From Ghiorsea bivora (GTDB lineage: Bacteria; Pseudomonadota; Zetaproteobacteria; Mariprofundales; Mariprofundaceae), in contig NZ_JQLW01000007.1 in NCBI RefSeq assembly GCF_000744415.1, positions 1 through 64,000 of the forward strand: DNA of 64,000 nucleotides. Direction: 5' to 3'. Below are positions 15,562-44,202 of the stretch, piece by piece (within the stretch, counting starts at the first letter, position 1; every line of letters starts with the position of its first letter). The notes below the pieces were generated by a model, which was given only the letters and a program-made list of their open reading frames with translations, was not told where the DNA came from and did not search any database. Both the position numbers and the translations under genes were made by a program.

Positions 15562-16488
15562 ATGGTTATTTTAAGTGGGATGTTTAATCTTTGCACAATG
15601 CGAGCATGTATTCTTTTATATCTGTTATTTTTCTCTTGGTTTGGACAGGTTCAGGCAGCACCTGCGCCTATTCATGATACAATGAATAGCATTGACCCTT
15701 ATACTTGGCGTATTTCTGATGGTTGGAGCAATGGGGGAATGTTTGCTGTGGGCTGGCGGGCTGATCATGTTGATATTTATGCTAATACATTACGACTCAC
15801 GTTGAATAACATGCCTTGTGTGAACAATGCAGCCTTATGTTCGGGTGCTGCGTATGCGGCTGGGGAGTATAGTAGCCAAGTTTTACTGCCTGCTGGACAA
15901 ATAACATTTCGGGCAAAAGTTGCCAAGGCATCGGGTGTGGTTACGGGATTGTTTTTATATACAGGCGCAAGTGATAATCAGCCCCATGATGAAATTGATA
16001 TTGAGTTTTTAGGTAAGGATACAACCCAAGTTCAGTTTAATTATTTTGTATCGGGTGTGGGTGGGCACGAAGCCTTGATACCTTTGGGTTTTGATGCTTC
16101 GCTGGCTATGCACAACTACAGCATCACATGGGATGCTACACATATTACTTGGTCGGTGGATGGGGTGGTGAAACATGAAGTAAAAAATGTGGCTTTGCCA
16201 ACATCTACGATGCGAATCTTTACCAATTTATGGGCTGCGAAAACTGTGGACGCTTGGTCTGGCATATATGTTTATCAGCAACCATTGTATAGTTATGTGG
16301 ATAAGGTGGATTATGTACCAGCAGTTTCGGGTGTAAACTCATCGTCCAATTCTGCTTCAAATACATCAGTAAATACGGCTTCTGGTGGGTGTATTACTCA
16401 AATTTGGTCAAGGCAAGCTTGGTCGTGGCAAATCTTGGTGAGCTTTGCTTTGTTCGTGGTGGGTTTATTCAAGTGCAAGGCTAGATGA
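15562..16488 (+). CDS. Secreted glycoside hydrolase family 16 (beta-glucanase-like) with C-terminal membrane anchor
   Basis: A 308-residue exported enzyme: a hydrophobic leader ends near AQAA (about 30-33), then a beta-jellyroll with the GH16 catalytic signature DEIDIEFLG (143-151; E144 nucleophile and E148 acid/base by family). Family members cleave beta-1,3/1,4-glucans, agars or carrageenans, or transglycosylate. A Ser/Asn linker (about 260-275) precedes a C-terminal hydrophobic helix with basic end FKCKAR, suggesting envelope retention. Its stop overlaps the start of the next LPS gene, so it may process an endogenous glycan rather than food polysaccharide (inference). Confidence 0.88.
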   Translation: MVILSGMFNLCTMRACILLYLLFFSWFGQVQAAPAPIHDTMNSIDPYTWRISDGWSNGGMFAVGWRADHVDIYANTLRLTLNNMPCVNNAALCSGAAYAAGEYSSQVLLPAGQITFRAKVAKASGVVTGLFLYTGASDNQPHDEIDIEFLGKDTTQVQFNYFVSGVGGHEALIPLGFDASLAMHNYSITWDATHITWSVDGVVKHEVKNVALPTSTMRIFTNLWAAKTVDAWSGIYVYQQPLYSYVDKVDYVPAVSGVNSSSNSASNTSVNTASGGCITQIWSRQAWSWQILVSFALFVVGLFKCKAR

Positions 16489-17501
16489 AAGTTTTAATCG
16501 TAAAATTATCAGCATTTGGGGACATTATTCATGCGCTTCCTGCCTTGGATGATGTGTTAAATCGTCCTGAAGTGGATGAGGTGCATTGGCTGGTGGATCG
16601 CCGCTTTGCTTTTGTCACAGAGGTGTTGCCGCCTGAAGTCAAAGTACATCAGATTGCACTCAAAGGTGGACACCCATTGCATGAGGTTCGCCGTGTAGTA
16701 AAGCAACTGCGAGCTGAAAAGTTTGATTTGGCTTTGGATTTTCAAGGTTTAATCAAATCATCTGTTTTAGCGCGGTTGATTTGTTCTAAGGTGTATGGGT
16801 TTGACCCTCAAGTGATTCGAGAAAAACCTGCATCATGGTTTGAAACATCCGCACCCGCACACCCTGATGAAATCAATATCGTGCAGCAGGTGAGAAGGGT
16901 GGCGCAGTCACCGTGGTTGTCCGATGAAGAGATGGATAAACCTATTGTTTATCAGCCGCCACGGATTCATAAGTCATTTGAGGCAAAACTTCCTGTTGAA
17001 TTGGATGATTTGAAACCTTGGGTGGTGTTTAATTTGGGTGGCTCTTTTGCGACCAAAGAATTGCCAGACCAAACTTGGCTGCAAGTTGGGCAAGCTTTGA
17101 AGGAAAAGGGTTATGCAATTGTTTTTTGTTGGGGAAATGCCAAAGAAGAAGCCAAAGCCAAACAACTGAATGCATCAGGTCTAGGTTATGTATTAACCAA
17201 ACGACTGACTATACCTGAATTATGTGTGTTTTTTAAGCAAAGTTTTGCTGTGATTGCCGCAGACACAGGCATTTTACACCTAGCAGCAGCTTTAAATACA
17301 CCAACCATTAGTTTTTGGGGGCCGACACCACGTGAACGGAATGCGCCCCATGGTAAGCTTGATTTTCATGTAGAATCCAACCCTGACTGTGGTCCATGTA
17401 TTCAAAAGACTTGTGATAATTTTATTTGCATGGACATGATTCAAGCCAAGGCAATTGTACAATGTATTACAAATATTGAGCATAGATTGATAGAAGGGTA
17501 A
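16485..17501 (+). CDS. waaC: LPS heptosyltransferase I-like (GT9)
   Basis: A 338-residue GT9 glycosyltransferase that adds the first heptose to Kdo in LPS inner core. The N-terminus VLIVKLSAFGDIIHALPALD (3-22) and the segment LALDFQGLIKSSVLARL are typical of WaaC, as is AADTGILHLAAALNTPTISF near the ADP-heptose site. Cytoplasmic face of the inner membrane. ATGA overlap with the GH16 gene upstream. WaaC rather than WaaF or WaaQ is judged by the N-terminal half. Confidence 0.85.
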   Translation: MKVLIVKLSAFGDIIHALPALDDVLNRPEVDEVHWLVDRRFAFVTEVLPPEVKVHQIALKGGHPLHEVRRVVKQLRAEKFDLALDFQGLIKSSVLARLICSKVYGFDPQVIREKPASWFETSAPAHPDEINIVQQVRRVAQSPWLSDEEMDKPIVYQPPRIHKSFEAKLPVELDDLKPWVVFNLGGSFATKELPDQTWLQVGQALKEKGYAIVFCWGNAKEEAKAKQLNASGLGYVLTKRLTIPELCVFFKQSFAVIAADTGILHLAAALNTPTISFWGPTPRERNAPHGKLDFHVESNPDCGPCIQKTCDNFICMDMIQAKAIVQCITNIEHRLIEG

Positions 17502-17503
17502 GA

Positions 17504-18256
17504 GTGTGTTTTATGTCTAAATTAAGTCGGTACTGTGCATTTGTGATTGTTTTTTTGTTTTCCACGCCAACATGGGCAGCGACTTCTGACTGTTTTCCTT
17601 TTGTCGGTGAACATTATAAATATGATGTGGGTTGGGAGTTTATCAATGCAGGTACTGCGGAGGTTAAAATAACGCAGCACGGAGATAATGGCTACCAAGT
17701 ACATAATTTTGCGCGAACCAATGGCTTTTTTGATATGTTTAAAAAAGTACGGGATACCTTGGTGTCCGAAGGTATTTGTTTGGGTGATAAGATGCAAAGC
17801 AGCTTATTTTGGACAGACCAACTTGAAAAAGGTAATCATACCAAAAAGCGCATCGAATATTTATGGCGCGAAAATAAAGTTCAATACCAGAACAATGAGA
17901 AAAACTTAACATTTGATGTAAAAGCAGGGCACCTGAGTGTGTTGGATGCATTTTATTTAACCCGCCTTCATCCGCCCACCAAAGATAAGCCGATTTCTAT
18001 TCCCGTATTTGATTCTGAGAAGAAATACGATGTGATTGTGAAGCTATTGAAACACCAGAAGATTACAGGTTTGGATGGTAAACGTATTGATTGTTTGGTG
18101 ATTCAGCCAGAGTTGAAGACAGAAGGTGTGTTTACCAGCGTGGGTGTGATTAAAATTTGGCTGACCAATGATGCGCGGCGCATTCCATTAAAAATTACTG
18201 CAAAAATTAAGATTGGACGTATTGTTGTGCGCCTAACGGAGTATTCAAAAACATGA
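17504..18256 (+). CDS. DUF3108 exported protein
   Basis: A 250-residue protein with a signal peptide ending near PTWAA (about 23-27) and the DUF3108 signature GEHYKYDVGWEFINAGTAEV, followed by beta-rich sequence. Function not established; members occur with envelope genes. The start is GTG 17504 or ATG 17513; the purine run AAGGG is better spaced for GTG. It lies between waaC and a methyltransferase whose ATG overlaps its stop. Confidence 0.8.
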   Translation: MCFMSKLSRYCAFVIVFLFSTPTWAATSDCFPFVGEHYKYDVGWEFINAGTAEVKITQHGDNGYQVHNFARTNGFFDMFKKVRDTLVSEGICLGDKMQSSLFWTDQLEKGNHTKKRIEYLWRENKVQYQNNEKNLTFDVKAGHLSVLDAFYLTRLHPPTKDKPISIPVFDSEKKYDVIVKLLKHQKITGLDGKRIDCLVIQPELKTEGVFTSVGVIKIWLTNDARRIPLKITAKIKIGRIVVRLTEYSKT

Positions 18257-18828
18257 CTGAAAACAAAAACAAACCTTTGAACCCTTATGATGATTTCTTT
18301 TATCACCATAGACCTCGCCTCACGGGCATTGCAGCACTTATCATTATCTTCTTTGCCCAGCCAACGCTAGAATCGTTATGCCTTGGTTCGATTATTGTGA
18401 TTCTTGGTGAAATGGGTCGCACTTGGGCGCTGGGTTATATCGATAAAGATGCCGCTTTGGCGACAACGGGACCTTATGCTTTTACGCGAAACCCTTTATA
18501 TGTATTTAATACAACCATGTTTATTGGTTTTTGTGTGATGGCAAACCAGCTGGTTCCTGCTTTGGTAGCTGCGGTTTTGTTTGTTTGGATTTATATTGTT
18601 GTGATTAAGATTGAAGCTGAGCGGATGGTGGATTTGTTTGGAGCGTCGTATGCTGAATGGTCGAAACATGTACCCTTGTTTATCCCACGTTTAACACCAT
18701 GGAAAGATAGAGCAAAAAAAGCGTATTCTTTTGCTTTAATGCTTGGGCATAAAGAACCCAAACATTGGTTTGGAACGGTTGTGGGTTTATCTATCTTTTA
18801 TGCTATTTATTACTTTCAAAATACTTAA
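18253..18828 (+). CDS. Membrane methyltransferase of the isoprenylcysteine/phospholipid methyltransferase (ICMT/PEMT) type
   Basis: A 191-residue, four- to five-helix membrane protein. The C-terminal SAM-binding pattern is TTGPYAFTRNPLYVFNTTMF (about 77-96) followed by KIEAERMVDLFGASYAEW. Such bacterial enzymes methylate lipids or other hydrophobic substrates; the target is unknown. ATGA overlap with the DUF3108 gene upstream points to one operon. Confidence 0.85.
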   Translation: MTENKNKPLNPYDDFFYHHRPRLTGIAALIIIFFAQPTLESLCLGSIIVILGEMGRTWALGYIDKDAALATTGPYAFTRNPLYVFNTTMFIGFCVMANQLVPALVAAVLFVWIYIVVIKIEAERMVDLFGASYAEWSKHVPLFIPRLTPWKDRAKKAYSFALMLGHKEPKHWFGTVVGLSIFYAIYYFQNT

Positions 18829-18840
18829 AAATCACTGTGC

Positions 18841-20028
18841 ATGACTTGTAATTCTAGCTTAGCAAACGTGGCAAAATATGTTTTTGTTACGTTTTGGCTT
18901 GTTGCCGCATTTGGGGCTTGGCAACATGTGCAAGCGCAAAAGCCGTGGTCGAGCATTGCTTGGTCACCCATATTTAAAGATACAAGCAGCACGCCCTTAT
19001 ATCGTGAACAGCTTATACCCAATGCAGGACAAGGTTCTACACATAGTGTGAGTACAGCCGTATTACCATCGGGTGATTTGGTTGCTTTTTGGTTTGGTGG
19101 TTCAAGAGAAGGTGCAAAAGATGTACGTATCTTTCAAAGCTTTTTTAAACAAACACAACAAGTATGGACAACGCCTACTGCAATCTTGGATGTACCAACA
19201 TTGGCAGCATCTGTAGGACGTTATATTGGTAAATTGGGCAATCCTTTGGTTTTTATCGACCAACATCAGCGCATGTGGCTTTATGTTGTCTCCGTATCGT
19301 ATGGTGGTTGGGCGGGCAGTAGTTTAAATGTGATGTTTTCAGATGACTTAGGCAAACATTGGAATACTCCAAAAAAACTCATTACTTCGCCATTTATCAA
19401 TGTGAGTACGCTGGTTCGTAATACCATGTATGCGATGCAAGATGGTAGCATGTTGTTACCCGTCTACCATGAGTTTGCCGCACAGCTCCCTGAGTTGTTA
19501 CGCGTTTCACCTCAGGGTGAAGTGATGGAAAAGGTACGAATGTATGGCAATGGGGGCGGAATACAACCATCATTGGTACAAGGCAAAAACAGACAAGTTT
19601 ATGCGTTTATGCGGGCAGGTTCGCATACCCAAGACTGGAAAGTGATTCGTTTAAAAAGTAAAAATGAAGGCAAAACTTGGTCAGATTTTACATTAACCGA
19701 CCTTCCCAACCCCAATTCAGCACAAATTGTTGAGAAAGTTGATGGAAATTTATGGATTTGGGTGGGCAATCATAATCCGAAACATAGACAAGACTTAACG
19801 CTGGCTGTTTCTCACGACTTGGAGAAACCTTGGCAAGTGGTTTATCAGTTTGAACAAGGCAAAAACCATCAAGCATTTTCATACCCCGCGATTGTACAAG
19901 GTAAAGATGGTGTGTGGAACTTGCTTTACACGGCAAACCGAAAAAACATTAAACATGTTCAATTTAATCGGGCATGGTTAAATCAGGTTATGCAACAGAT
20001 GGACGTACAGCAGGTAGGCGTGCAATGA
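18841..20028 (+). CDS. Secreted BNR-repeat, sialidase-like protein
   Basis: A 395-residue protein with an N-terminal hydrophobic segment (about 8-24) and a six-bladed beta-propeller of the exo-alpha-sialidase type. Asp-box-like motifs are seen: SDDLGKHWNTPK, SKNEGKTWSDFT and SHDLEKPWQV. The leading segment AGQGSTHSVSTAVLPSGDLV is typical of this subgroup. Catalytic Tyr/Glu residues of true sialidases cannot be assigned by eye, so activity is uncertain. In this position it may trim or bind surface glycan. ATGA overlap with the next gene. Confidence 0.75.
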   Translation: MTCNSSLANVAKYVFVTFWLVAAFGAWQHVQAQKPWSSIAWSPIFKDTSSTPLYREQLIPNAGQGSTHSVSTAVLPSGDLVAFWFGGSREGAKDVRIFQSFFKQTQQVWTTPTAILDVPTLAASVGRYIGKLGNPLVFIDQHQRMWLYVVSVSYGGWAGSSLNVMFSDDLGKHWNTPKKLITSPFINVSTLVRNTMYAMQDGSMLLPVYHEFAAQLPELLRVSPQGEVMEKVRMYGNGGGIQPSLVQGKNRQVYAFMRAGSHTQDWKVIRLKSKNEGKTWSDFTLTDLPNPNSAQIVEKVDGNLWIWVGNHNPKHRQDLTLAVSHDLEKPWQVVYQFEQGKNHQAFSYPAIVQGKDGVWNLLYTANRKNIKHVQFNRAWLNQVMQQMDVQQVGVQ

Positions 20029-20570
20029 CATTAGGGCTTACGCTGTTTTTCTACTGGTTGAGCCTAGCATGGGTGAGGCTGGTGCGTCTTGATGCCAGCA
20101 TTAAAGTTAACGTTGCTACATTATTTATCATTTCACCTTTTGTAGTTTATCCTTTTGTGTATAGCCCTGTGTGGTGGTTACGTGGTTTAACTGGCGATTT
20201 AAGCTTAACCACAACAGTTCTGCTTGTTGCAGCCGTGTATGTGAAACTGTTTGACAAGAAGTTGATTGCAACGAAAGAAAGAAAGCTGATGTTGTGGTCT
20301 GTAGTTGGGTTTGGTGTGGTATTTTATCCATTGGCTTTAGGTGTTGGACAATTAGACCCTTATGTTTGGGGATATGCCAATGTTTATATGCTTGGCATGG
20401 TACTAGGTTTGAGTTTATTGCTGTTTTTACGCCAGTATTATGTGTTTGCGACGACTTTATTATTGGCTGTATTGGCATGGAATGTTGGGCTTTTACAATC
20501 TGTGAATCTCTGGGACTATCTCCTTGACCCTTTTATTTTCTTTTATGCTTTGCTGCGTTTATTAAGATGA
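20025..20570 (+). CDS. Polytopic membrane protein, unknown function
   Basis: A 181-residue protein from ATG 20025, which overlaps the stop of the sialidase-like gene (ATGA). About five to six hydrophobic helices cover nearly all of it (TLGLTLFFYWLSLAWV, VNVATLFIISPFVVYPFVYS, NVYMLGMVLGLSLLLFL). It is followed by another ATGA overlap with a GT4 gene. No family recognised; the tight coupling suggests a partner in glycan export or modification. Confidence 0.75.
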   Translation: MTLGLTLFFYWLSLAWVRLVRLDASIKVNVATLFIISPFVVYPFVYSPVWWLRGLTGDLSLTTTVLLVAAVYVKLFDKKLIATKERKLMLWSVVGFGVVFYPLALGVGQLDPYVWGYANVYMLGMVLGLSLLLFLRQYYVFATTLLLAVLAWNVGLLQSVNLWDYLLDPFIFFYALLRLLR

Positions 20571-21667
20571 AAATTTTAGAACTGTGTTTGTCACCCAATA
20601 AGGGTGGTTTAGAGCTTTATTTTGCGGATGTTTGTAATGCTTTGATGCCTCATATGCAGGTATTGAGTGTGATTGCACCGAATTCCAAATTAAAACCACT
20701 GATACATTGCGATACCATAGAACTTGTTAAGAAAGTTCACTATTTCCCTTGTTTGGCGGCAAAGAAACTTGCAAGTATCATTGATATGAATGGTATTGAT
20801 ATCATTCATTTGCACTGGAATAAAGATTTAACATTGGCTGTGTTGGCAAAGCTTTTTTCAAAACGAAAACCAAAATTGGTGATTACACGGCATATGAAGT
20901 TTCCTGCGATGAAAGATGGTGTTCTGCACAGGTTTTTATATCAACATATTGATCATATCATGGCGATTACCCAAACCATGGCATTGGATTTAAAACGTTT
21001 TATTCCTGATGATGTACGTCCTGAGATATCCGTGAATTATTTGGGTATTGATAGTGTTTCACCATTTAGCGATGAAGAAGTATCACAAATAAGAGCTTTG
21101 TATGATGCTGAAAACAAAAATTTTTTGATTGCTTTGGTAGGGCGTATTGATGCGGACAAAGGACATGATTTACTCCTAGAAGCGTTAGGCATAGCAAAAA
21201 CTAAGGGTTTACCTTTTAAAGTATTGGTGGTGGGGCATCCCATGCAGGAAAGTTATTTACAGGGATTGAAAGAACGGGTTAAAACACAAGGTTTACAAGA
21301 TGAAATGTTATTCCTTGGCTTTGTGGATGAGCCAAGATGTTTGATGCAGGCATGTGATGTATTGGTCTTGGCAACCATTGAAGAGACCTTTGGTTTGGTA
21401 TTGATTGAAGCCATGAGCGTGGGTACGCCTGTGATTGGTAGCAATCGAGGTGGGGTGCCTGAAATCATTGAAGATAAACAAACAGGACTGTTGTTTGAAT
21501 CATGTGATAGCCAAAGTTTGTTCGAAGCCTTAGAAACACTCTACTTAAACCCTGAACAAGCCAAAACATATGCAGATAAGGCTTTTATCAAGGTGCAGGA
21601 AAAGTTTGCTGTGCAGGCGCATATTGAAACTTTGGTAAACAGACTTAAGGAGGTTGTAAATGGTTGA
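20567..21667 (+). CDS. GT4-family glycosyltransferase
   Basis: A 366-residue GT-B enzyme. Seen: LSPNKGGLELYFADVCNAL (8-26), FLIALVGRIDADKGHDLLLE (domain 2 start), and the E-x7-E region EETFGLVLIEAMSVGTPVIG that contacts the nucleotide sugar. Probably adds a sugar to the LPS core or O-chain. Its end overlaps the next GT2 gene by 8 bases, with a GGAGG site inside the GT4 reading frame. Confidence 0.9.
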   Translation: MKILELCLSPNKGGLELYFADVCNALMPHMQVLSVIAPNSKLKPLIHCDTIELVKKVHYFPCLAAKKLASIIDMNGIDIIHLHWNKDLTLAVLAKLFSKRKPKLVITRHMKFPAMKDGVLHRFLYQHIDHIMAITQTMALDLKRFIPDDVRPEISVNYLGIDSVSPFSDEEVSQIRALYDAENKNFLIALVGRIDADKGHDLLLEALGIAKTKGLPFKVLVVGHPMQESYLQGLKERVKTQGLQDEMLFLGFVDEPRCLMQACDVLVLATIEETFGLVLIEAMSVGTPVIGSNRGGVPEIIEDKQTGLLFESCDSQSLFEALETLYLNPEQAKTYADKAFIKVQEKFAVQAHIETLVNRLKEVVNG

Positions 21668-22409
21668 TATTTCAGTGGTAATGATTACCAAAAATGCAGA
21701 ACGTAAACTTACGCAATGCCTTACCTCTTTGAGCGCATTTGATGAAGTGGTGATTTATGATAATGGTTCCACAGATAATACATTGGAAATTGCAAAAGGT
21801 TTTGACAATGTAAAAGTGTTTGAAGGTGCATTTTTTGGCTTTGGTAAAACCAAAGCACATGCCGCAACGCTAGCGACACATGATTGGGTGTTTTCGCTTG
21901 ATGCTGATGAAGTGGTTAGCTCAGATCTGGCAGCAGAATTAAGCAATAAAACCTTGGATGCTGGGGTATGTTATCAGGTGCAGCGGGATAATTATTATCG
22001 GGGAAAACATATCAAATGTTGCGGTTGGTACCCTGAATATATTGTGCGTTTATACCATCGCGGTCAAGCCAACTTTTCTGATGCACCCGTGCATGAGACA
22101 GTGCAAACCAAAGGTTTAAAAGTGGAAAAATTACAGGCTCCTATTGAGCATTATTCTTTTGATAGTGTGGCTGATTTTTTGGTAAAAATTCAGAGTTATT
22201 CGGAGATTTATGCCAAAGATATGCAAGGTAAAAAGGATGTTTCCATTTTTGCAGGTTTAGGTCGTGGCGTGTTTGCATTTATTAAAAGTTATTTCTTTCG
22301 CAAAGGTATCTTTTGTGGTTTTGAAGGTTTTACCATTGCCTTTTTTCACGGCTTAGGTACAACAGTGAAATACCTCAAACTTTATGAGAAAAATCATCCT
22401 AGGAAATAA
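21660..22409 (+). CDS. GT2-family glycosyltransferase, WaaE/KdtX-like
   Basis: A 249-residue GT-A enzyme: DISVVMITKNAERKLTQCL (3-21), IYDNGSTDNTLEIAKGF (32-48), and the metal-binding SLDADEVV. This length and the CGWYPEYIVRLYHRG block match WaaE/KdtX-type LPS core beta-glucosyltransferases. It is the last plus-strand gene of the cluster; its 3' end overlaps the convergent heptosyltransferase gene by 11 bases. Confidence 0.87.
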   Translation: MVDISVVMITKNAERKLTQCLTSLSAFDEVVIYDNGSTDNTLEIAKGFDNVKVFEGAFFGFGKTKAHAATLATHDWVFSLDADEVVSSDLAAELSNKTLDAGVCYQVQRDNYYRGKHIKCCGWYPEYIVRLYHRGQANFSDAPVHETVQTKGLKVEKLQAPIEHYSFDSVADFLVKIQSYSEIYAKDMQGKKDVSIFAGLGRGVFAFIKSYFFRKGIFCGFEGFTIAFFHGLGTTVKYLKLYEKNHPRK

Positions 22410-25350: not shown

Positions 25351-27192
25351 CTAAGGTTGAACTGTGTTCTTTTGACGTTTGCGTTGCAGTAAAATCATTC
25401 GCACACGCTGTAAATTTTGTTCAACCATCTTAAATCCTGGGTAGACTTTTAAGGCTTGTTCAAATACCACTTCTGCCTTTTCAAATTGACCCATGCTCAT
25501 GTATGCTGCACCCAACATGTTCAGTGCGGGCGGATTGTAGGGATAAAATGTTTGGAACGCTTCAAAATATCTGGCGCTTTGTGCATAGTTTTTTTGTTTA
25601 TATGCAACTTGCCCCATGCCAAATACGGCACGGAAGTTCTCATTGTCCCAAACATAAGCTTTTTGATAAAATTGCATTTCTTGTGCTGGTTGTCGCACAT
25701 GTGCCATGGCTTGACCAACATACCATTCCGACACAAGCCAACGTGTTGGCCATATGCAAAGCAAAATAATTGTCATGATACTGAAAATACTTAATACCTT
25801 AGGTTTTATTTGAAATGTGTTTTGATGTTGTGCAGGTAATAAACCCAACCAAGTACCAGCAAGCAGGGCAAAAACAAACATGCTGGCAGGATTGAAAAAG
25901 ACATGATTAAACATGGCATCAAAAAGTACGGCTGAGACAGCTGCTAACCCTGTAATGTATTGTGGATTCCACTGCTGCCAAGATGATTTGAGCAAGCGAA
26001 ACCAAAAATATAATAATAAGCTCATAAAAAGAAGCATGGCAGGTATACCATTTTGTGAAGCAATTTGCAGTATGACATTATGTGGGTTGGTCGTAAAAGT
26101 GCGTGCACTACTTAATGAGTCCCTAAAATCAGGGTAGCGGTTGCTATAGTTGGGGTAGACCCACGCAAAATTGCCGGTACCTTGACCTAAAACTGGGGTG
26201 TCCAGTGTCATGGCTGTTGTTGCCGCAAAAATAGATGTTCGTGCACCCAAAAGAGGGGATAGAGCTACCCACATATCAACCATAGGTGGTTGCAACACCT
26301 GAGCTGTAAGAACAATTTTCCCATCTTCGGTCGCGACTTGTCCTGCAGAGGCTGAAACACGGGCTAAGTCCCTGTAATGGTAGGGTAGTGCATTGTAAAT
26401 CAATAATGATGCGATAAAAGTGCTGCCAATAAGTAAGCTTGGTAACACATAGTCTTTTTTGCATAGCAAAAGGTGCTTGTAATGTTTGATGAATATCAAA
26501 AAGATAATCATAACAGCAACAAACAACCCACCCAATGCACCACGGGAACTTGCAACCAATAGAATGGTTGCAAGTGTTGTTACTGAAAACCAGTTGAGCA
26601 CACGTAAAATAACGTTGTTATGGGTTGCAAGTACCCAGATTAACATGGGCAGCAAGATGATGAGAACATCACCCGTGAAATTCACATGCCCAATCGGTGA
26701 GAATAATACATGAATATTATAATTGGGTTTACCATAGTCTAAGAAATAACTTTCCCAATAGCGGATTGAAAAAATGAATGAGCCTATGGATAAGCTCCAG
26801 ACCAATCGGTTCATCCATTGCGGTTCGTGGCGTGTTGCCCATATGCTAAGCAGTAAAATGCTGATACAAAAAAACCAAAAGGCAAAGCGAATCATACCTT
26901 CTGTCATGTTCGGACCGATAAAAATACCAACAGCAAGAATCAGGGTGTATAAAAGTAGTGCCAAGCTAGGAAGCGTAGGTTTGGGAATAAGCAGTGGTGA
27001 GGGACGTTTGAACCACAACCAAGCTGCTGCAATACCCATCCAGAGAAAACAAAGGGTTAATACCGCCCATTTGGGTTCTTCATTGGGTGCAACAAAGGGG
27101 AATACCCTGATGTTAATCATCAAAGGAAAAGCAAGTAGGGGTGCAATAAGCACCAGCCAAGGTGAATGCGAAAATGATGTTTTATATTGCAT
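25351..27192 (-). CDS. Wzy_C-type O-antigen ligase with C-terminal TPR repeats
   Basis: A 613-residue protein. About 12 helices span 10-470, with the periplasmic Wzy_C loop around 320-370 (TPVLGQGTGNFAWVYP, TNPHNVILQIASQNGIPAML). A soluble tail of two or three TPR units follows (FRAVFGMGQVAYKQKNYAQS and LNMLGAAYMSMGQFEKAEVV). This architecture matches PglL/PilO-like protein O-oligosaccharyltransferases as well as O-antigen polymerases. It is the second Wzy_C protein here. Substrate unresolved. Confidence 0.85.
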   Translation of the reverse strand: MQYKTSFSHSPWLVLIAPLLAFPLMINIRVFPFVAPNEEPKWAVLTLCFLWMGIAAAWLWFKRPSPLLIPKPTLPSLALLLYTLILAVGIFIGPNMTEGMIRFAFWFFCISILLLSIWATRHEPQWMNRLVWSLSIGSFIFSIRYWESYFLDYGKPNYNIHVLFSPIGHVNFTGDVLIILLPMLIWVLATHNNVILRVLNWFSVTTLATILLVASSRGALGGLFVAVMIIFLIFIKHYKHLLLCKKDYVLPSLLIGSTFIASLLIYNALPYHYRDLARVSASAGQVATEDGKIVLTAQVLQPPMVDMWVALSPLLGARTSIFAATTAMTLDTPVLGQGTGNFAWVYPNYSNRYPDFRDSLSSARTFTTNPHNVILQIASQNGIPAMLLFMSLLLYFWFRLLKSSWQQWNPQYITGLAAVSAVLFDAMFNHVFFNPASMFVFALLAGTWLGLLPAQHQNTFQIKPKVLSIFSIMTIILLCIWPTRWLVSEWYVGQAMAHVRQPAQEMQFYQKAYVWDNENFRAVFGMGQVAYKQKNYAQSARYFEAFQTFYPYNPPALNMLGAAYMSMGQFEKAEVVFEQALKVYPGFKMVEQNLQRVRMILLQRKRQKNTVQP

Positions 27193-36453: not shown

Positions 36454-36547
36454 CCTATCTATTTTTGCTTTGAGTGGAAGAGGTGGGATTCCCTTGATAT
36501 TCTAGCCATGCCTTATTATCGTATACCCCGATCTAATGAGGATACCT

Positions 36548-38767
36548 ATGGGAGGGTTTATGCTTCTTAAGCAGCAGCGGCAATTAATTGCCACTGGTCT
36601 TGTTACACAAGAGCAAATATCCGAAGCAATGAAGGGGAACAAAGGGCAAAAAGCTGGTCTTTTGCTTGGTCTTTTAGATATTCCTGATATTGACGGGGAT
36701 AAACTTTTGATGGCATTGGCGAAGGTTTATAAAGTGCCATTTATTGACCCTATGCAGGTTGAAGTTGAGCCTTTGCTGCTAGAGAAGTGTCCTGAAGAAT
36801 TGTGTGAAGAGTTTTGCTTTGTACCGATTGCATTAAATGCAGGTGAGATGGTGATTGCAACTGCAGATCCCATGGATTATGCAGGTATAGATGTCTTGCA
36901 ATTTAAGCTGGGACAACGTGTGCGGCCTGTTTTCTCAAGTCCTACGCTTATTCAAAAGAAAATTCGCGAATTATATGGATCTTTTGATGATGTTATGGGG
37001 GATATGGATGATACCCAAGCTTTTGCCTCTATTGAGGAAGATGATACGGAAGCTGATAGTGCACCTTCAGACCTAGATGCGCTAAAAAAAGGTGCGGAAG
37101 GTTCTCCAATTATCAAATTGGTGAATGGTATTATTGTTAAAGCGATGCAAATTGGTAGTTCGGATATTCATATTGAAGCTGCAGATGGAAAAAGTTTGGT
37201 GAGAATGCGGGTAGATGGTCGTTTGCGCTCTGTGATGAGTTTTCCGCATAAAGCACATCCTATGTTGGTTTCACGCATTAAAATTATGTCCAAGTTGGAT
37301 ATATCGAATACACGAACGCCACAAGATGGCCGTACTCGTGTGAAATTTATGAGTAAAAGTTTTGATATGCGTATTTCGACATTACCTTCGATGCATGGTG
37401 AGAAAATCGTTATGCGTATCCTTGATAAATCAGGCTTATCATTATCTTTGGATGTGTTGGCGTTTGAGAAAAAGGCTGATGAGCGTATTCGAGACGCGAT
37501 TACAAGGCCTACAGGGGCGGTGCTGGTCACAGGGCCCACGGGTTCGGGTAAAACAACTACGCTTTATTCATTTTTGCACCATATTAATGATGAAGAAACA
37601 AATATTGTTACTGTAGAAGATCCTGTTGAATTTCAAATCAAAGGTTTGAATCAAGTGCAAGTTAATGCCAAATCAGGTATGACTTTTGCTGCGGCATTGC
37701 GTTCTATTCTTCGCCAAGACCCTGATGTGGTGATGGTGGGTGAGATTCGAGATGAGGAAACAGCCCATATTGCTTTACATGCTGCGCAAACAGGGCATTT
37801 GGTGATGTCTACTTTACATACCAATGATGCGCCTTCTACGGTGAGTCGTTTGGTGGAAATGGGGGCAGACCCCGTTGCATTATCATCATGTTTAAACATT
37901 ATTGTTGCCCAACGTTTGGCACGGCGTTTATGTCCTAGTTGTAAGAAAAAGACGACACCTACGTCTGAAATGATTGCCAAGTATGATATGCCTGAAGATT
38001 TAGAGATTTATGAACCCGTGGGTTGTAATAAGTGTTTGAATATTGGTTATAAGGGTCGTTGTGGTGTGCATGAGACACTTTATGTTAACGATAGGGTGCG
38101 GAAAGCCATTGCGAACGGTGTATCCGACCAAGAGTTGATGCAAGTCTGTCGTGAAGAAGGTATGTATGCCTTGTTTGAAGATGGTATGAATAAGGTGTTA
38201 CAAGGTGTAACCAGTGTAGCAGAAGTGACACGGCTATCGATAGCTCCTGAGGATTTTAGTTTTCAAGATAGAATTGACAGTGATGGAAACCTTATGTCTT
38301 TGGGGCAAGCTAATGAGGCGAGAGATCAAGGGCAGCTTGCACCAAAAGAAGATACCAAACGCAATACAATATTATTAATTGATGATTCTAAAAGTATTCG
38401 TAGCCTAGTTGGTTTTATCTTAAAGTCAGAAGGTTTTGATATTGCTGAAGCTGAAGATGGGAGGAAAGGGTTAGATTTGCTTAAACAAGCGCTACCGCAA
38501 GTTGCTTTGGCAATTGTGGACTATGATATGCCCAATATGACAGGCCCTGAGTTTGTCCAAGAAGTGCGTAGACAAAGTAAGTATGATGATATTCCAGTTG
38601 TGATGTTAACATCGCGGCATGATGAAGATGATGAAGTATTGGGTCTAGATTCTGGGGCAGATGATTATATTATCAAACCTGTGGAGCCAATGAAGTTGCA
38701 AGCACGTGTCCGAAAAATTTTACAAATGTATGAAAGGGTGAGACAAGCCCAACAGAGGCAGGTATAA
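36548..38767 (+). CDS. PilB/GspE-type secretion motor ATPase fused to a receiver domain
   Basis: A type II secretion/type IV pilus assembly ATPase with an extra C-terminal receiver. ATG 36548 is preferred (GAGG 6 bases upstream); ATG 36536 is an alternative and is used for numbering. T2SSE N-domain about 12-150; Walker A GPTGSGKT (333-340); Asp and Walker B boxes through VGEIRDEETA (401-410); zinc cysteines C466, C469, C497, C500. A linker leads to a receiver (about 610-740) with D662 in VDYDMPNMTG and K in IIKPVE. The fusion would let phosphorylation tune pilus extension or secretion. First gene of the chemosensory operon. Confidence 0.93.
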   Translation: MGGFMLLKQQRQLIATGLVTQEQISEAMKGNKGQKAGLLLGLLDIPDIDGDKLLMALAKVYKVPFIDPMQVEVEPLLLEKCPEELCEEFCFVPIALNAGEMVIATADPMDYAGIDVLQFKLGQRVRPVFSSPTLIQKKIRELYGSFDDVMGDMDDTQAFASIEEDDTEADSAPSDLDALKKGAEGSPIIKLVNGIIVKAMQIGSSDIHIEAADGKSLVRMRVDGRLRSVMSFPHKAHPMLVSRIKIMSKLDISNTRTPQDGRTRVKFMSKSFDMRISTLPSMHGEKIVMRILDKSGLSLSLDVLAFEKKADERIRDAITRPTGAVLVTGPTGSGKTTTLYSFLHHINDEETNIVTVEDPVEFQIKGLNQVQVNAKSGMTFAAALRSILRQDPDVVMVGEIRDEETAHIALHAAQTGHLVMSTLHTNDAPSTVSRLVEMGADPVALSSCLNIIVAQRLARRLCPSCKKKTTPTSEMIAKYDMPEDLEIYEPVGCNKCLNIGYKGRCGVHETLYVNDRVRKAIANGVSDQELMQVCREEGMYALFEDGMNKVLQGVTSVAEVTRLSIAPEDFSFQDRIDSDGNLMSLGQANEARDQGQLAPKEDTKRNTILLIDDSKSIRSLVGFILKSEGFDIAEAEDGRKGLDLLKQALPQVALAIVDYDMPNMTGPEFVQEVRRQSKYDDIPVVMLTSRHDEDDEVLGLDSGADDYIIKPVEPMKLQARVRKILQMYERVRQAQQRQV

Positions 38768-39234
38768 TGGCAGAGCTAAATTTAGATAAGCTTCAAGCAG
38801 CTAAGGATGCCACTGTAGGTGAACATTCTGAATTGGTTGAATATATGCGGGTTGTTTTGAATGGCGAGATGTTCTTATTGCCTGTGGCTAGCGTGTTAAG
38901 TGTTATCAGACCACTTTCACTTACCCCAGTGCCTATGGCGCCCGATCATTTGTTGGGTGTAACCAATGCGAGAGGGCAAATTTTCTGCATTGTTGACCCT
39001 GGTAAAACATTACGTCTGTCACACAAGTTGCAAGCTGAAACAAGTGCTAGCCGATTCTTGTTGTTACGTCATGCCCGGGTACATTTGGGTATCTGGGTTG
39101 AAGAGGTCTTGGATTTGTTGCGTATTTTACCAACTGATATTGAGAAAACGAAGGAAAAAACGTATATTCAGGGTACTTTGCAGACAAAATATGGACCATT
39201 GCCTATTCTGCGCGTTGAAGCCTTGTTTGAATAA
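38767..39234 (+). CDS. cheW: CheW-like coupling protein
   Basis: A 155-residue CheW domain protein linking chemoreceptors to CheA. Segments LPVASVLSVIRPLSLTPVPM and HLLGVTNARGQIFCIVDPGK are typical. The start codon shares one base with the stop of the ATPase gene (TAATG), indicating tight coupling. PilI-like by context. Confidence 0.9.
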   Translation: MAELNLDKLQAAKDATVGEHSELVEYMRVVLNGEMFLLPVASVLSVIRPLSLTPVPMAPDHLLGVTNARGQIFCIVDPGKTLRLSHKLQAETSASRFLLLRHARVHLGIWVEEVLDLLRILPTDIEKTKEKTYIQGTLQTKYGPLPILRVEALFE

Positions 39235-39306
39235 GGTTACTGTTTCCAACCGTTAAAAAAGTAGTAAGTGTGGATGAAGTTTGAAAATTGAAATGGAGTA
39301 CGAAAT

Positions 39307-40836
39307 ATGAGTGATGTTACGCAAGTTCAGGCAGAAGAGATTGTTGAAGGTACTGAACAAGAGGAAAACCAAACATCAGAAACCCAAACCTCAGAAAAAG
39401 CCAAGGTTAATATTCGAACGCTAGCACGTCGCAATATGATTTGGTCAGTTTTGTTTTTTGCTGTGCTTGGTGCAACCGTGTTGTTTACATCCTTTCAGGC
39501 TTCCAAAAACATGGAATCTTTAGCGGTAATTTACGGGCAGCAGGTTCAAATTGAAAAATTTAGAGCTACCTTACCCAATGTTCTTTTACCATTGAATGAT
39601 TATATTATGACACAAAATGAAGGTGATGTACAAAAGGTTAAACGAGCCAATGCAGCCTTCCAAAACTTATATAAAAAAGTATCTGCGTTTTCAGGTTTAT
39701 CAACAGCAGATAAAAAAGAACTTAAAAGTGTGAAAGACTTAATGACAGAAGTGGGAAGCTTAGCAAATGATATTATTTCAGGTGCTATTCCTTTTGATCA
39801 GGCTGGTAGTATTGCAATTGTTGCGCAAAGTTTGGTATTTGTAGGACAAGATAAAGTGAATACGATTGCAACCCATGTTAGCCAAGTGCTGAGTCAAGAA
39901 GTGGTTGCTAAAGAAACACAAATGTCATGGCTAACTTGGATTAATATTGCGGTCATTCTCGCTATTTTGTTATTATTGGTTTACTTAAGCCGATTGTTTA
40001 CCTCAAATATCACCAATCATATTAGTAGTGCGGCGCAAAATGTTGCTTTCTCATCTGAGGATATTTTGATGTCTGTTGATAGGCAAGCTACAGCATCTAA
40101 TACCCAAGCAGATATCGTGGTTAATGTAACGGATGAATTGAGTAAAATGTCTGGTGCATCAACAAAAATTGCCCAAACAGCCACCAGTGTTGAACGTATA
40201 GCTTCGGCGACATCTCATGCTGCAGAAGAAGGTGTGAAAGCGGTGAATGAAGCCATTGGTTACATGGATAAAATTCGTGAGGAAGTAACCTTAATTGCAG
40301 AAAAAGTAACGGATGCGGGGCAAAAAGCAGAGCAGATTCTTGAATCTGTTGATTCGATTCAAGAGATTGCTGATGAAACACATCTGTTGGCGTTAAATGC
40401 TTCAATTGAGTCTGCTGCGGCTGGTGAATTTGGTAAGCGTTTTGCTGTGGTTGCTAGTGAAGTTCGTCGCTTATCTGAGCGCGCCCGTGAATTTACAGAA
40501 GAAATTCAAATCGTGGTGAATGATGTACATCAATCAACCAGTGCATCGATTGAAGTAACTCAAGAAGGTTTAGAAGAGGTTGCTAAGGGTGTGGAAATTG
40601 CACGCCGTGCAGGTGTTGCACTTGAGCGTATGCAGGATATGTCAGTGAAAACAAGTAAAGCGGTACATACGATTGCACTTGCAACCAAACAGCAAAGTGA
40701 AAGCAGTCAGGAGTTTGTGGATACCATGAAAGATATTTCAACATTATTGCAAGATTCAGCTGCACAGATGCAAAAATCACGTGATTCGGCAGGGCAACTT
40801 AACGTTGTTGCCGATGAACTAAAGAAATTTGTTTAA
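39307..40836 (+). CDS. Methyl-accepting chemotaxis protein (PilJ-like context)
   Basis: A 509-residue receptor: cytoplasmic acidic N-terminus, helix 1 (about 44-62), a periplasmic helical region of about 140 residues, helix 2 (about 205-226), then a cytoplasmic signalling coiled coil. The hairpin tip is ETHLLALNASIESAAAGEFG with RRLSERAREF, the CheA/CheW-binding region. No HAMP domain is obvious. No CheR or CheB lies near, so methylation control is uncertain. The ligand domain is small, as in PilJ-like receptors. Confidence 0.92.
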   Translation: MSDVTQVQAEEIVEGTEQEENQTSETQTSEKAKVNIRTLARRNMIWSVLFFAVLGATVLFTSFQASKNMESLAVIYGQQVQIEKFRATLPNVLLPLNDYIMTQNEGDVQKVKRANAAFQNLYKKVSAFSGLSTADKKELKSVKDLMTEVGSLANDIISGAIPFDQAGSIAIVAQSLVFVGQDKVNTIATHVSQVLSQEVVAKETQMSWLTWINIAVILAILLLLVYLSRLFTSNITNHISSAAQNVAFSSEDILMSVDRQATASNTQADIVVNVTDELSKMSGASTKIAQTATSVERIASATSHAAEEGVKAVNEAIGYMDKIREEVTLIAEKVTDAGQKAEQILESVDSIQEIADETHLLALNASIESAAAGEFGKRFAVVASEVRRLSERAREFTEEIQIVVNDVHQSTSASIEVTQEGLEEVAKGVEIARRAGVALERMQDMSVKTSKAVHTIALATKQQSESSQEFVDTMKDISTLLQDSAAQMQKSRDSAGQLNVVADELKKFV

Positions 40837-40858
40837 GTGCGTCTTTCAATTATAAACC

Positions 40859-43375
40859 ATGGCTGATTTTGACTTATCGAATTTTCTCGCATCATTTTTT
40901 GATGAAGCTAGAGAGCGCTTAAGCGCTATTAATCAGGCCTTGGTTGCCTTTGAATCAGGTTCTTTGGATGAAGCTGGTTTGGTTGCAATGCGTAGGGATG
41001 CCCATACCATTAAAGGTTCGGCGCTGATGTTAGGTGTGAATGATATTGGTCGCATTGCCCATGTGTTTGAAGATATGGTGGAAGCCCTTATTGAACATGG
41101 AGATTGGCAACAGCCTTTGGCGCTACAGTTTTTATATGATTTGCATGATTTATTAGAAAAACGCCTGGCAGATGTTGATAACCCTGAGCTTATTGATACT
41201 AAAGCAGCTGAAGTAAAGTTTGCCGAGGTGATCGAAGCATTGAAGAAAGGTGGCGAAAAGACGGTTGTAGCAGACCAGAAGCCCCAAGAAGACTTAGCAA
41301 CGTCTTTGGTTAAAGAAGTAGAAGCTTTAAATGCCGTAGATTCTGAAACTTTAACAAATAGTCACGAACACATTGATGTAAATATTGAAGCTGATGATGA
41401 GCTAAGTTTGACCAATATTAATGTAGAATTGGCATCTGCTTTTCCAGAATCAAAAGAGCAAGAGGCTGGGCAAGACTCTATTGTAGACAGCCTTAATGAA
41501 GAAACTGTTTTTGAGATACCAATACTTGAGTCAGAATCCCCTTTTAGGCCTGTATCAAACTTTGATGATAAAAAAGCCGTGGGTGAACGAAAAAGTTCAG
41601 GGCGTTTCTTGCGTGTTGATGCAGAGCGCTTAGAAGCATTATCACACCATATTATTGAAATGAGTACGGCACAAAGTCGCCACGGGCAACGCGATCAAAA
41701 GCTCAAAGAAGCACAGTTGGGATTGCGACTGTTGAAACGAGAATGGCAACAGATGCGTTATAAGTTTGCGCAACAACCAAGTATGGCGGCATCATTAAAG
41801 GTGATGGATAGTTTGATTGAAGATCAGTTGCGCAAGACACAGCAATTGATGGAAGAATCAAGGTTTCAGGTTGAACATCAAAGTTTGACTTTAAAGGAGT
41901 TGAGGGATCAGGTTTTAGCGCTTATGTTGCGACCACTTGATAGTGTGTTTGCAACCTTTCCCCGTGCTGTACGAGATATAGCATCTAAAATTGGTAAACG
42001 TGTGCAGTTGGTTGTGGATGGTAAATCCGTTGAAATGGACCAAGGCGTGGCTGAATCATTGGTTGAGCCGCTGATTCACCTTTTGAATAATGCTGTGGCA
42101 CATGGCATTGAAGATAGTGATGAGCGCCAACGTTTAGGTAAACCCGAAAGTGGGCAAGTAACGATTGTTGCACGGCAAAATGGTAGTGAAGTACAAATTG
42201 AAGTTATCGATGATGGTCGTGGAATTAATCCTGATGTTATTCGCAAGGCAGCTGTTGAGCGTGGGGTAACCACGCAAGATGAGATTGATTTGATGGATTC
42301 AGCTGAAGTACTAGAGCTTATCTTTAGACCTGGTTTTTCAACGTTAAAAGAAGTGGATGAGATGGCAGGTCGTGGCATTGGTATGAATATTGTTCAGGAT
42401 GCTATTCGTAAGCTGACAGGTTCAATTAAAATTCATTCGGAAGTGGGGCAGGGTACGCGCTTTATTATTTCAGTGCCTATTAGTATTGCTGTACAAGAAG
42501 CATTGATGTTTAAGATTGGTGGACAGCGTTATGGTATGTTGACCCACCTGATCGAACAAGCCATTGTTTATAACGAAAAAAATATTACGCATGGTGTAGC
42601 TGGTAAACGCTTTTTAAGTTATGATAACCATCAAGTGCCTATTGTTGATTTACGCCCTATGATGTATGGCAGTGATATGAATTTATCAGATACACCTTAT
42701 ATTATTGTTGCCGAACACATTGAAGGTTTTGTTGGTATTTTAGTGGATGAATTGTTGGGTGATGGCGAAGTGGTGGTGCATGACTTAGACCCATATATCA
42801 AGCGTTACCAACCACAAGGTTTGATGGGTAACACCATTGTAGAGGATGGTTCAGTGATGATGCTTCTTGAGCCATATGGTATCAAGGAAATGGGTCGAAC
42901 CTCTCCAAACCAAGTCATAGATATTGTACTTAAAGAAGAAGATAAGTTACGTTTTAATGTATTGTTGGTTGATGATTCACTTATTGCCAGAGAAGTTGAA
43001 AAAAGTATTTTTGAAAACTTAGGTTTTGTGGTTGAAACAGCGATTGATGGTATGGATGCGTTGGAAAAATTAGAATCCTCAACATATGATATGATTGTTA
43101 CGGACTTAGAAATGCCACGTTTGGACGGTTTTGGTTTGGTTCGCCAAATCCGTAATCAGCCCCAATATGAAGACTTGCCTATAATGGTGATTTCAACCCG
43201 AGAAAGCTCAGAAGACCGCTTGCGGGCGCTTGAAGCTGGTGCTGATTCATACTTGGTTAAACAACATCTCGATGCAGATTCCATTATTGCAACAGTGAAA
43301 GCTTTGGTTGGCCCACTGCTTGTAGAAGAAAGGGGTATTGCTTCGACAACTGATAAGCCTAAAAGCATACAATGA
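40859..43375 (+). CDS. CheA-type hybrid histidine kinase with C-terminal receiver
   Basis: An 838-residue kinase: Hpt domain with H49 in RRDAHTIKGSALMLG, an acidic linker (about 130-250), dimerisation helices, ATPase core (LIHLLNNAVAHGIED N box; GRGIGMNIVQDAIRKL), a CheW-like domain (about 555-690) and a receiver (about 700-825) with D in VTDLEMPRLDG and K in LVKQHL. ChpA/FrzE-like architecture with a single Hpt. It probably phosphorylates its own receiver and that of the ATPase encoded upstream. ATGA overlap with the next gene. Confidence 0.93.
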   Translation: MADFDLSNFLASFFDEARERLSAINQALVAFESGSLDEAGLVAMRRDAHTIKGSALMLGVNDIGRIAHVFEDMVEALIEHGDWQQPLALQFLYDLHDLLEKRLADVDNPELIDTKAAEVKFAEVIEALKKGGEKTVVADQKPQEDLATSLVKEVEALNAVDSETLTNSHEHIDVNIEADDELSLTNINVELASAFPESKEQEAGQDSIVDSLNEETVFEIPILESESPFRPVSNFDDKKAVGERKSSGRFLRVDAERLEALSHHIIEMSTAQSRHGQRDQKLKEAQLGLRLLKREWQQMRYKFAQQPSMAASLKVMDSLIEDQLRKTQQLMEESRFQVEHQSLTLKELRDQVLALMLRPLDSVFATFPRAVRDIASKIGKRVQLVVDGKSVEMDQGVAESLVEPLIHLLNNAVAHGIEDSDERQRLGKPESGQVTIVARQNGSEVQIEVIDDGRGINPDVIRKAAVERGVTTQDEIDLMDSAEVLELIFRPGFSTLKEVDEMAGRGIGMNIVQDAIRKLTGSIKIHSEVGQGTRFIISVPISIAVQEALMFKIGGQRYGMLTHLIEQAIVYNEKNITHGVAGKRFLSYDNHQVPIVDLRPMMYGSDMNLSDTPYIIVAEHIEGFVGILVDELLGDGEVVVHDLDPYIKRYQPQGLMGNTIVEDGSVMMLLEPYGIKEMGRTSPNQVIDIVLKEEDKLRFNVLLVDDSLIAREVEKSIFENLGFVVETAIDGMDALEKLESSTYDMIVTDLEMPRLDGFGLVRQIRNQPQYEDLPIMVISTRESSEDRLRALEAGADSYLVKQHLDADSIIATVKALVGPLLVEERGIASTTDKPKSIQ

Positions 43376-44202
43376 CACGTTTTTTACCTGTGCCTGATTA
43401 CCACATGCACACGCCTCGCTGCAATCACGCCAAGGGTACAATTGATGAATATGCACAAGCTGCAGTAGATGCTGGGCTGACAGAAATAGGCATGTCTGAC
43501 CATTCTCCTATGCCCAATGGTTTTGATAAAGCATGGCGTATGGATGAATCTGAGCTTGATTCCTTTCTTGAAGAACTTGAAGCAGCACAGCAGAAATTTA
43601 AAGGGAAATTGTTGATTAAGGCTGCGCTTGAAGTGGATTATTATGAGGGCGCAGAGGCGTATATCCAGTATTTAGCCGCTTATTATGATTGGGACTACTT
43701 GATGGGTTCGGTTCACTTTATTGGCGATTGGGGTTTTGATAATCCTGATGAAGTCAGTCAATTTGAACATTGTGACATTGAGCAAGCCTATATAGATTAC
43801 TTTAGATTGGTTGAGCTGTCGGCAGCAAGTGGTTTATTTGATAGTATTGGTCACCCTGATTTGATTAAAAAATTCGGTCACCGTGCACCTACAGGGTCTG
43901 TTGCAGTTTTAGAAGCTGAAAATAAGATGTTACAAGCAGTAAAACAAGCAGATGTCGCCCTAGAAATAAGTTCTGCGGGTTTGAGAAAGCCTGTTAAAGA
44001 AATTTATCCGCACGTCGGAATGGTTGAGCGAGCCGTAGCGCTTGGTATTCCTTTTGTTTATGGGTCTGACGCACATGCGCCAGCAGAAGTTGGTCATGCA
44101 ATGCAGACTTGTTTGCAGCTATTACATCAATTTGGTGCTGTAGAGGTTGCTTGTTTTCATAAGCGTCAACGCAAGATGTTTTCCTTTGTAGAGCAAGTAT
44201 GA
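43372..44202 (+). CDS. PHP-domain histidinol-phosphatase-like phosphoesterase
   Basis: A 276-residue PHP protein: metal-binding DYHMHTPRCNHA (8-19), GMSDHSPMP, and YGSDAHAPAEVG near the end; the pattern matches HisK/HisJ-type histidinol phosphate phosphatases. It could catalyse the penultimate histidine step, but no other his genes are here, so a different phosphoester is possible. Overlaps the kinase and SDR genes by 4 bases each. Confidence 0.85.
   Translation: MTRFLPVPDYHMHTPRCNHAKGTIDEYAQAAVDAGLTEIGMSDHSPMPNGFDKAWRMDESELDSFLEELEAAQQKFKGKLLIKAALEVDYYEGAEAYIQYLAAYYDWDYLMGSVHFIGDWGFDNPDEVSQFEHCDIEQAYIDYFRLVELSAASGLFDSIGHPDLIKKFGHRAPTGSVAVLEAENKMLQAVKQADVALEISSAGLRKPVKEIYPHVGMVERAVALGIPFVYGSDAHAPAEVGHAMQTCLQLLHQFGAVEVACFHKRQRKMFSFVEQV

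Follow-up and report, generated by a model that had tools for sequence, protein, structure and literature searches.

The locus described here lies in the genome of Ghiorsea bivora, a member of a group of marine, probably iron-oxidizing bacteria, and was analysed within a window of 64,000 nucleotides to which all coordinates refer unless another contig is named. Between positions 36536 and 43375 the window holds four intact genes on the plus strand, coding for a PilB-type ATPase with a C-terminal receiver domain (hereafter ATPase-REC), a CheW adaptor of 155 residues (38767-39234), a chemoreceptor (MCP) of 509 residues (39307-40836) and a CheA hybrid kinase of 838 residues that carries a receiver of its own (40859-43375). 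The open reading frame of the ATPase-REC gene starts at 36536, giving 743 residues counted from there, and ends at 38767. A ribosome site, GGGAGGG, is found at 36550-36556 and the genes of relatives begin at the equivalent of position 36560; therefore, 36560 is the likelier start codon. The intergenic region which contains this site (36454-36559) separates the ATPase-REC gene from a divergent MltD-like transglycosylase gene on the minus strand. The ATPase-REC and CheW reading frames overlap by one base, followed by gaps of 72 bp between CheW and MCP and 22 bp between MCP and CheA. Beyond CheA the co-directional run continues into a gene for a PHP-domain phosphoesterase-like protein (43372-44202, plus strand), which overlaps the CheA stop by 4 bp. 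Because this gene adjoins the operon only within the same genus, it is probably not part of the chemosensory system. Promoter and terminator scans gave matches at chance level only. An earlier note on this DNA, made from the sequence alone, had set the bounds of the operon at 36536 and 43375 and had described its genes as nearly gapless. The four genes and their tight spacing hold, while the start is likely 36560 and the run reaches further downstream. Elsewhere in the window, what looks like a polysaccharide cluster comprises a co-directional run at 15562-22409, with genes for a GH16 glycosyl hydrolase (15562-16488) and a BNR-repeat protein (18841-20028), and an O-antigen ligase-like gene (25351-27192).

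The ATPase-REC protein comprises an MshEN domain (residues 65-149; 36728-36982, Pfam), a T2SSE motor domain (residues 188-566; 37097-38233, E 8e-136) and the receiver (Response_reg, residues 612-726; 38369-38713, E 7e-26). Hereby, the motor retains the Walker A motif (G333-T340; 37532-37555), the catalytic glutamate E403, the His motif (H421/H428) and the four zinc-site cysteines C466, C469, C497 and C500, which together with the MshEN N-domain place it in the PilB/GspE-type motor superfamily. The receiver has the residues of a functional one, i.e. the acidic pair D616/D617, the phospho-acceptor D662 (38519-38521), T692 and K714 (38675-38677). The gene content read in the earlier note, an ATPase with Walker A, zinc cysteines and a full receiver followed by CheW, a receptor and a CheA-receiver hybrid, is thus confirmed by domains and residues alike. 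Motor motifs and receiver pocket are invariant in an alignment of 15 sequences. Among 57 family sequences and fragments compared with the window (58 sequences in all), only one genome (G026) departs from the Walker, Asp, His and zinc motifs at the sites covered, and in all rows that cover the receiver pocket it reads DDDTK except in G084 (D617G) and G089 (DRDSK). The invariance of the motor residues in intact copies argues for ATPase activity in nearly all lineages. The c-di-GMP-binding motif of MshEN domains consists of two RLGxx...LxxxLxxQ repeats (PMC12943098; motif text also in PMC7288161); in ATPase-REC, as judged by eye over residues 10-60, it is degenerate and lacks RLG and Q in both repeats.

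With respect to family placement, the PilB model (TIGR02538) scores best of all ATPase models with 604.8 bits, compared to 555 bits for GspE (TIGR02533), and the closest solved structures by sequence are likewise those of PilB (619 bits vs 530 bits for GspE). The protein falls below both equivalog cut-offs (675.65 bits in the case of PilB) and shares 40% identity with the PilB and 41% with the GspE of its own genome. In an ATPase tree, from which the fragment L079 was excluded as it distorted the topology, the ATPase-REC proteins form one clade (support 100/98) that is sister to neither of these two; ATPases with a C-terminal receiver from a Calditrichota genome (L085) and a deltaproteobacterial MAG (L077) group weakly with it. 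An AlphaFold model of ATPase-REC (pTM 0.30) confirms the receiver fold and gives no confident docking of the receiver on the motor.

The CheA of the operon has the order Hpt-HATPase-CheW-Response_reg, with a single Hpt (H49) and a C-terminal receiver (D749, K801); a P2 domain was not detected with Pfam, and NCBIfam returned only generic CheA matches, all below cut-offs. Across relatives the Hpt histidine and the N, D and G boxes are kept at every covered site, and the number of Hpt domains varies between one in the window and two in the ortholog on L072. The receptor has transmembrane segments near residues 47-65 and 206-228 which enclose a four-helix periplasmic region of about 140 residues. 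Its AlphaFold model (mean pLDDT 82) is all-helical, with a short four-helix periplasmic bundle and a cytoplasmic hairpin of ~20 heptads per arm. Pfam found neither a HAMP nor a known sensor domain, and the modelled receptor fits a candidate 40H-type. Receptors of one genus (g9; L068, L225, L229, L230, L232) have lost the canonical hairpin tip, with GEFGKRF missing and the flanks diverged. Despite this loss, the genus keeps CheW and CheA with intact catalytic residues.

The whole-genome search for this ATPase-receiver architecture and its gene neighbours, which the earlier note had proposed, located ATPase-REC in about 54 of 78 Zetaproteobacteria genomes, with CheW as the next gene in almost all of them, and in one further genome (G041) that is the only representative of another class. 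Hereby, 52 of the 78 were assigned with a family profile at E 1e-190, and a shorter fragment (G009) and a tail at a contig edge (G014) raise the number to 54. None of roughly 320 other Pseudomonadota genomes sampled contains an ortholog past the strict cut-off, and a plasmid search returned no record covering 80% of the query, i.e. no close relative on plasmids. In ~50 neighbourhoods the genes follow the order ATPase-REC, CheW, MCP, CheA as far as the length of the contig allows, the exceptions being G026, G027, G029, G088, G089 and G094, discussed below; G035 and G062, which belong to one genus, keep the operon as two halves on different contigs, ATPase-REC with CheW and MCP with CheA. Upstream, in divergent orientation, most genera outside g9 have MltD- and DppA-like genes. 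A stand-alone PilG/PilH or a conserved CheY gene was found in the operon in none of the genomes examined. Two genomes of one genus (G064, L235:13079-15999; G030, L064:2-2895) have another che cluster (CheB-like, CheW, CheA) beside the operon in opposite orientation. Two apparent variants were rejected: a natural ATPase-REC-CheW fusion of 913 residues in G063, the junction of which is full of Ns (156 non-ACGT letters in the locus), and a split ATPase-REC in G083, best explained by an indel or a sequencing error.

ATPase-REC and the CheA of this operon occur together. In 39 near-complete genomes of the class, 26 have both, 12 have neither and a single one (G088) is discordant (Fisher p = 3e-9, a value that ignores phylogeny). 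Over all 78 genomes the counts, which likewise ignore shared ancestry, are 51 with both, 3 with the ATPase only, 5 with CheA only or partial and 19 with neither; CheA orthologs were delimited by eye where the scores drop from about 430 to 295 bits. Paralogous CheAs of about 30% identity are present in several genomes and represent a different set, one of which lies ~6 kb from a flagellin-family gene in G083. Between close relatives, dN/dS amounts to 0.01-0.02 for the receiver, 0.04-0.05 for the motor core and about 0.1 for the N-terminal domain, with the analysis restricted to close pairs as G026 and most pairs of genus g9 are saturated. The receiver is thus under very strong purifying selection, with a tighter constraint than the motor core in these close pairs. 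The operon is a conserved system and not a chance neighbourhood, and the notion of an architecture confined to a single locus and maintained in evolution is corroborated by its conservation, by the dN/dS of the receiver and by the co-occurrence with CheA.

The exceptions to this pattern concern either the motor or the kinase. Two genomes (G029, in an N-free contig interior, and G027) have CheW-MCP-CheA with intact kinase residues and no ATPase-REC at the locus, the three genes of the former lying next to MltD. The ATPase-REC profile found no other copy in these assemblies, which are 83% (G029) and 88% (G027) complete; it is possible that the gene has moved to an unassembled stretch. In G026 a protein of 503 residues consists of MshEN, part of N2 and an intact receiver, the ATP-binding core being gone, and the gene may be decaying. 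These three cases show that the kinase, and the receiver as well, can persist without the motor. Conversely, G088 and G094 have an ATPase-REC with intact pocket and neither an adjacent CheW-MCP-CheA nor a detectable CheA ortholog. In G094 the place of CheW behind ATPase-REC is taken by a gene that reads as recombinase-like (L227:4882-5730), as though the operon had been interrupted by a mobile element. A third genome, G089, also has neither a CheA ortholog nor the adjacent genes; here, one acidic residue of the receiver pocket and the MP motif are gone, and the motor retains its ATPase motifs intact. Decay of the receiver in a genome devoid of this CheA fits a wiring from CheA to the receiver.

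The genome of the host (2,154,483 bases in 13 contigs, own stretches with 41.6-43.3% GC) was searched for further chemosensory and motor genes. Five CheW-domain matches were found genome-wide, which account for two CheAs and two CheWs in all. The second CheA, with two CheW domains and a receiver, clusters with CheR, CheB, CheW, a lone CheY, a PAS-bearing MCP and a protein of 1199 residues. As the genome also encodes flagellin, this second set is probably the flagellar one. Its CheA is distributed over two overlapping reading frames (L057:9029-12029, G000:C10), an Hpt-only one of 150 residues and one of 867 residues with kinase-CheW-CheW-REC, which could reflect a frameshift, an assembly error or a truly split CheA. 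The 1199-residue reading frame, between the CheY and MCP genes (L057:12437-16036), has no Pfam match. The earlier note had seen no CheY, CheB, CheR or pilus genes next to the operon; they are indeed missing there, and all of them are found elsewhere in the genome. Its description of the operon as self-contained goes too far, since the operon would depend on the other cluster for CheR and CheB. The genome-wide check for separate PilG/PilH homologs revealed no Pil-Chp system, i.e. no ChpA, PilG or PilH set; the only CheY within any che cluster is that of the second set, and several other stand-alone receivers are present. Motor ATPases are encoded at three further places (part of the gene names being assigned by reading the sequence, without a profile search): PilB with PilC behind it and a prepilin peptidase further along (C6), GspE with GspF and the secretin GspD (C9), and three PilT/PilU-like genes (C11). 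The only two PilC/GspF genes of the genome each lie beside another ATPase, in the PilB and GspE operons; a third was not found, and neither a PilC platform nor a prepilin peptidase gene adjoins ATPase-REC. Lacking a platform of its own, ATPase-REC would have to borrow PilC or GspF.

Several known systems resemble parts of this arrangement. The Frz system of Myxococcus xanthus likewise uses a CheA hybrid kinase that influences pilus-based motility, but it is not known to have a motor fusion and its outputs are separate response regulators. Similar to Pil-Chp, the Tfp-class system of Pseudomonas aeruginosa (ChpA, PilI, PilJ, PilG, PilH), the operon has a CheA hybrid with C-terminal receiver and without P2, a CheW and one membrane receptor, and its predicted output is a PilB-type extension ATPase. 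Unlike Pil-Chp, it has no separate PilG/PilH, PilK or ChpB, its CheA has one Hpt instead of many, and the receiver is covalently attached to the PilB-like ATPase. PilB and GspE themselves (TIGR02538, TIGR02533) share MshEN, the T2SSE motor and all catalytic and zinc-site residues with ATPase-REC, which differs by its own clade, the extra receiver and the lack of adjacent pilus genes. PilG is reported to control PilB localization (PMC12632253), and in the Tax1/Pix system of Synechocystis (PixG, PixH, PixI, PixJ, PixL) the phosphorylated PATAN response regulator PixG binds PilB1/PilC (PMC12288463). In Tax1/Pix a receiver protein thus contacts the motor, as is predicted for this operon; PixG, however, is a separate PATAN-REC protein, whereas the receiver here is in cis and without PATAN. 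The fusions on L085 and L077 show the same domain order and an intact pocket, with no chemosensory genes seen on their contigs. On L085 (483-9925 of an 11-kb contig) the receiver-bearing ATPase is the only ATPase, and the genes behind it code for a prepilin peptidase, a PilC-like platform and three proteins with pilin-type leaders, which supports the compatibility of a C-terminal receiver with a working motor. In a Rubrobacter MAG (Actinomycetota; L130:1727-5002) a receiver-like stretch (380-492) precedes a PilB-type motor (541-1088); this is a separate kind of fusion. At least these three remote fusions (L077, L085, L130) are among the matches listed from a full-alignment scan of the sampled contigs, which are dominated by generic PilB motifs and include no member of the ATPase-REC family. 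The contrast which the earlier note drew with systems that signal through a free response regulator holds insofar as PilG/PilH are missing here. With PixG and the fusions in Calditrichota and a deltaproteobacterial MAG, a pilus motor regulated by a receiver is not wholly without precedent.

On the basis of the gene and domain content, the intact catalytic residues, and the conservation and linkage described above, we favour, with moderate confidence, a dedicated pathway from the type IV pilus group of chemosensory systems, in which the phospho-output is fused in cis to an accessory PilB-family motor. Hereby, the membrane receptor with its short periplasmic helical bundle, together with CheW, would set the activity of CheA, which would autophosphorylate on the Hpt histidine and hand the phosphate to D662, in the receiver that the hexameric PilB-family ATPase carries at its C-terminus. 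Phosphorylation of D662 would then alter the activity or location of the ring or its docking on PilC as shared platform, turning pilus extension up or down without a free CheY/PilG; the receiver of CheA itself would probably serve as phosphate sink or signal reset. We infer the phosphotransfer from CheA to D662, the use of PilC and the direction of the effect. We prefer a pilus output over secretion as the PilB models outscore GspE and as PilG-PilB and PixG-PilB1/PilC provide precedents. The earlier note had proposed a direct wire from receptor to motor. Architecture, linkage, co-occurrence, the lack of Pil-Chp and the decay of the receiver in G089 are in line with such a wire. As sole output it is too far-reaching, as G029 and G027 keep CheW-MCP-CheA at a locus devoid of ATPase-REC, G026 keeps only the N-terminus and the receiver, and CheA carries a receiver of its own. 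Besides these genomes, the ATPase-REC with intact pocket in G088 and G094, where no CheA ortholog was found, the lost hairpin tip of the g9 receptors, the lack of a third PilC/GspF, the other stand-alone receivers of the host and the AlphaFold model of ATPase-REC without confident docking count against the favoured pathway.

The same exceptions bear on other explanations. ATPase-REC could be a regulator or adaptor and not a motor in its own right, its N-terminus docking on a pilus or secretion platform or joining PilB rings, with receiver phosphorylation tuning the main PilB. The protein of G026, which kept the N-terminal part and the intact receiver after loss of the ATP-binding core, would fit this explanation, as would the separate PilB of the host in a PilB-PilC-PilD operon and the lack of a spare platform. 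All motor residues are nevertheless invariant in intact copies and the G026 gene may be decaying, so that we regard this explanation as unlikely, if worth keeping in view. It is quite unlikely, in our estimate, that the main target of CheA lies elsewhere, in a stand-alone receiver or a diguanylate cyclase, with the ATPase receiver as phosphate sink or secondary target. In its favour are the loci of G029 and G027, at which CheW-MCP-CheA persists with ATPase-REC missing, the several lone receivers of the host and another che cluster beside the operon in G030 and G064; against it stand the tight operon linkage and co-occurrence elsewhere, the lack of a conserved CheY gene throughout the operons examined and the decayed receiver of G089, where CheA is missing. 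Finally, the ATPase might drive type II secretion on the GspF platform, so that the operon would control secretion and not a pilus. GspD, GspE and GspF are present in the genome and ATPase-REC is about equally similar to the PilB and the GspE of its host, but PilB outranks GspE in both the profile and the structure-sequence comparison, and those chemosensory classes with a known effect on motor ATPases target pili; we thus consider a secretion output very unlikely.

Returning to the pilus pathway with its output in cis, the arrangement suggests that a sensor may control a motor directly, without the usual free messenger protein. Whether the motor is itself the response regulator, phosphorylated directly by the chemoreceptor array in a class-wide system of the Zetaproteobacteria that has replaced Pil-Chp, appears to us evenly balanced. 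A receiver acting on a pilus motor in trans and ATPase-REC fusions in other lineages are already known; in the open-licence literature we found no description of an operon that combines its CheA, CheW and receptor with a motor ATPase bearing a receiver, nor of a PilB-receiver fusion or of this operon in Zetaproteobacteria. In known systems the route from chemosensory signal to pilus motor is only partly worked out, by the effect of PilG on PilB localization and the binding of PixG to PilB1. If receiver and motor are one polypeptide, phosphorylation could be read on the purified ATPase and its effect on rate, docking or location would be directly testable, for which the natural exceptions, i.e. 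a receiver kept without the core, an ATPase with decayed receiver and a kinase without the ATPase, offer ready comparisons. If true, the pathway would give iron oxidizers living on steep gradients of oxygen and iron a route for taxis.
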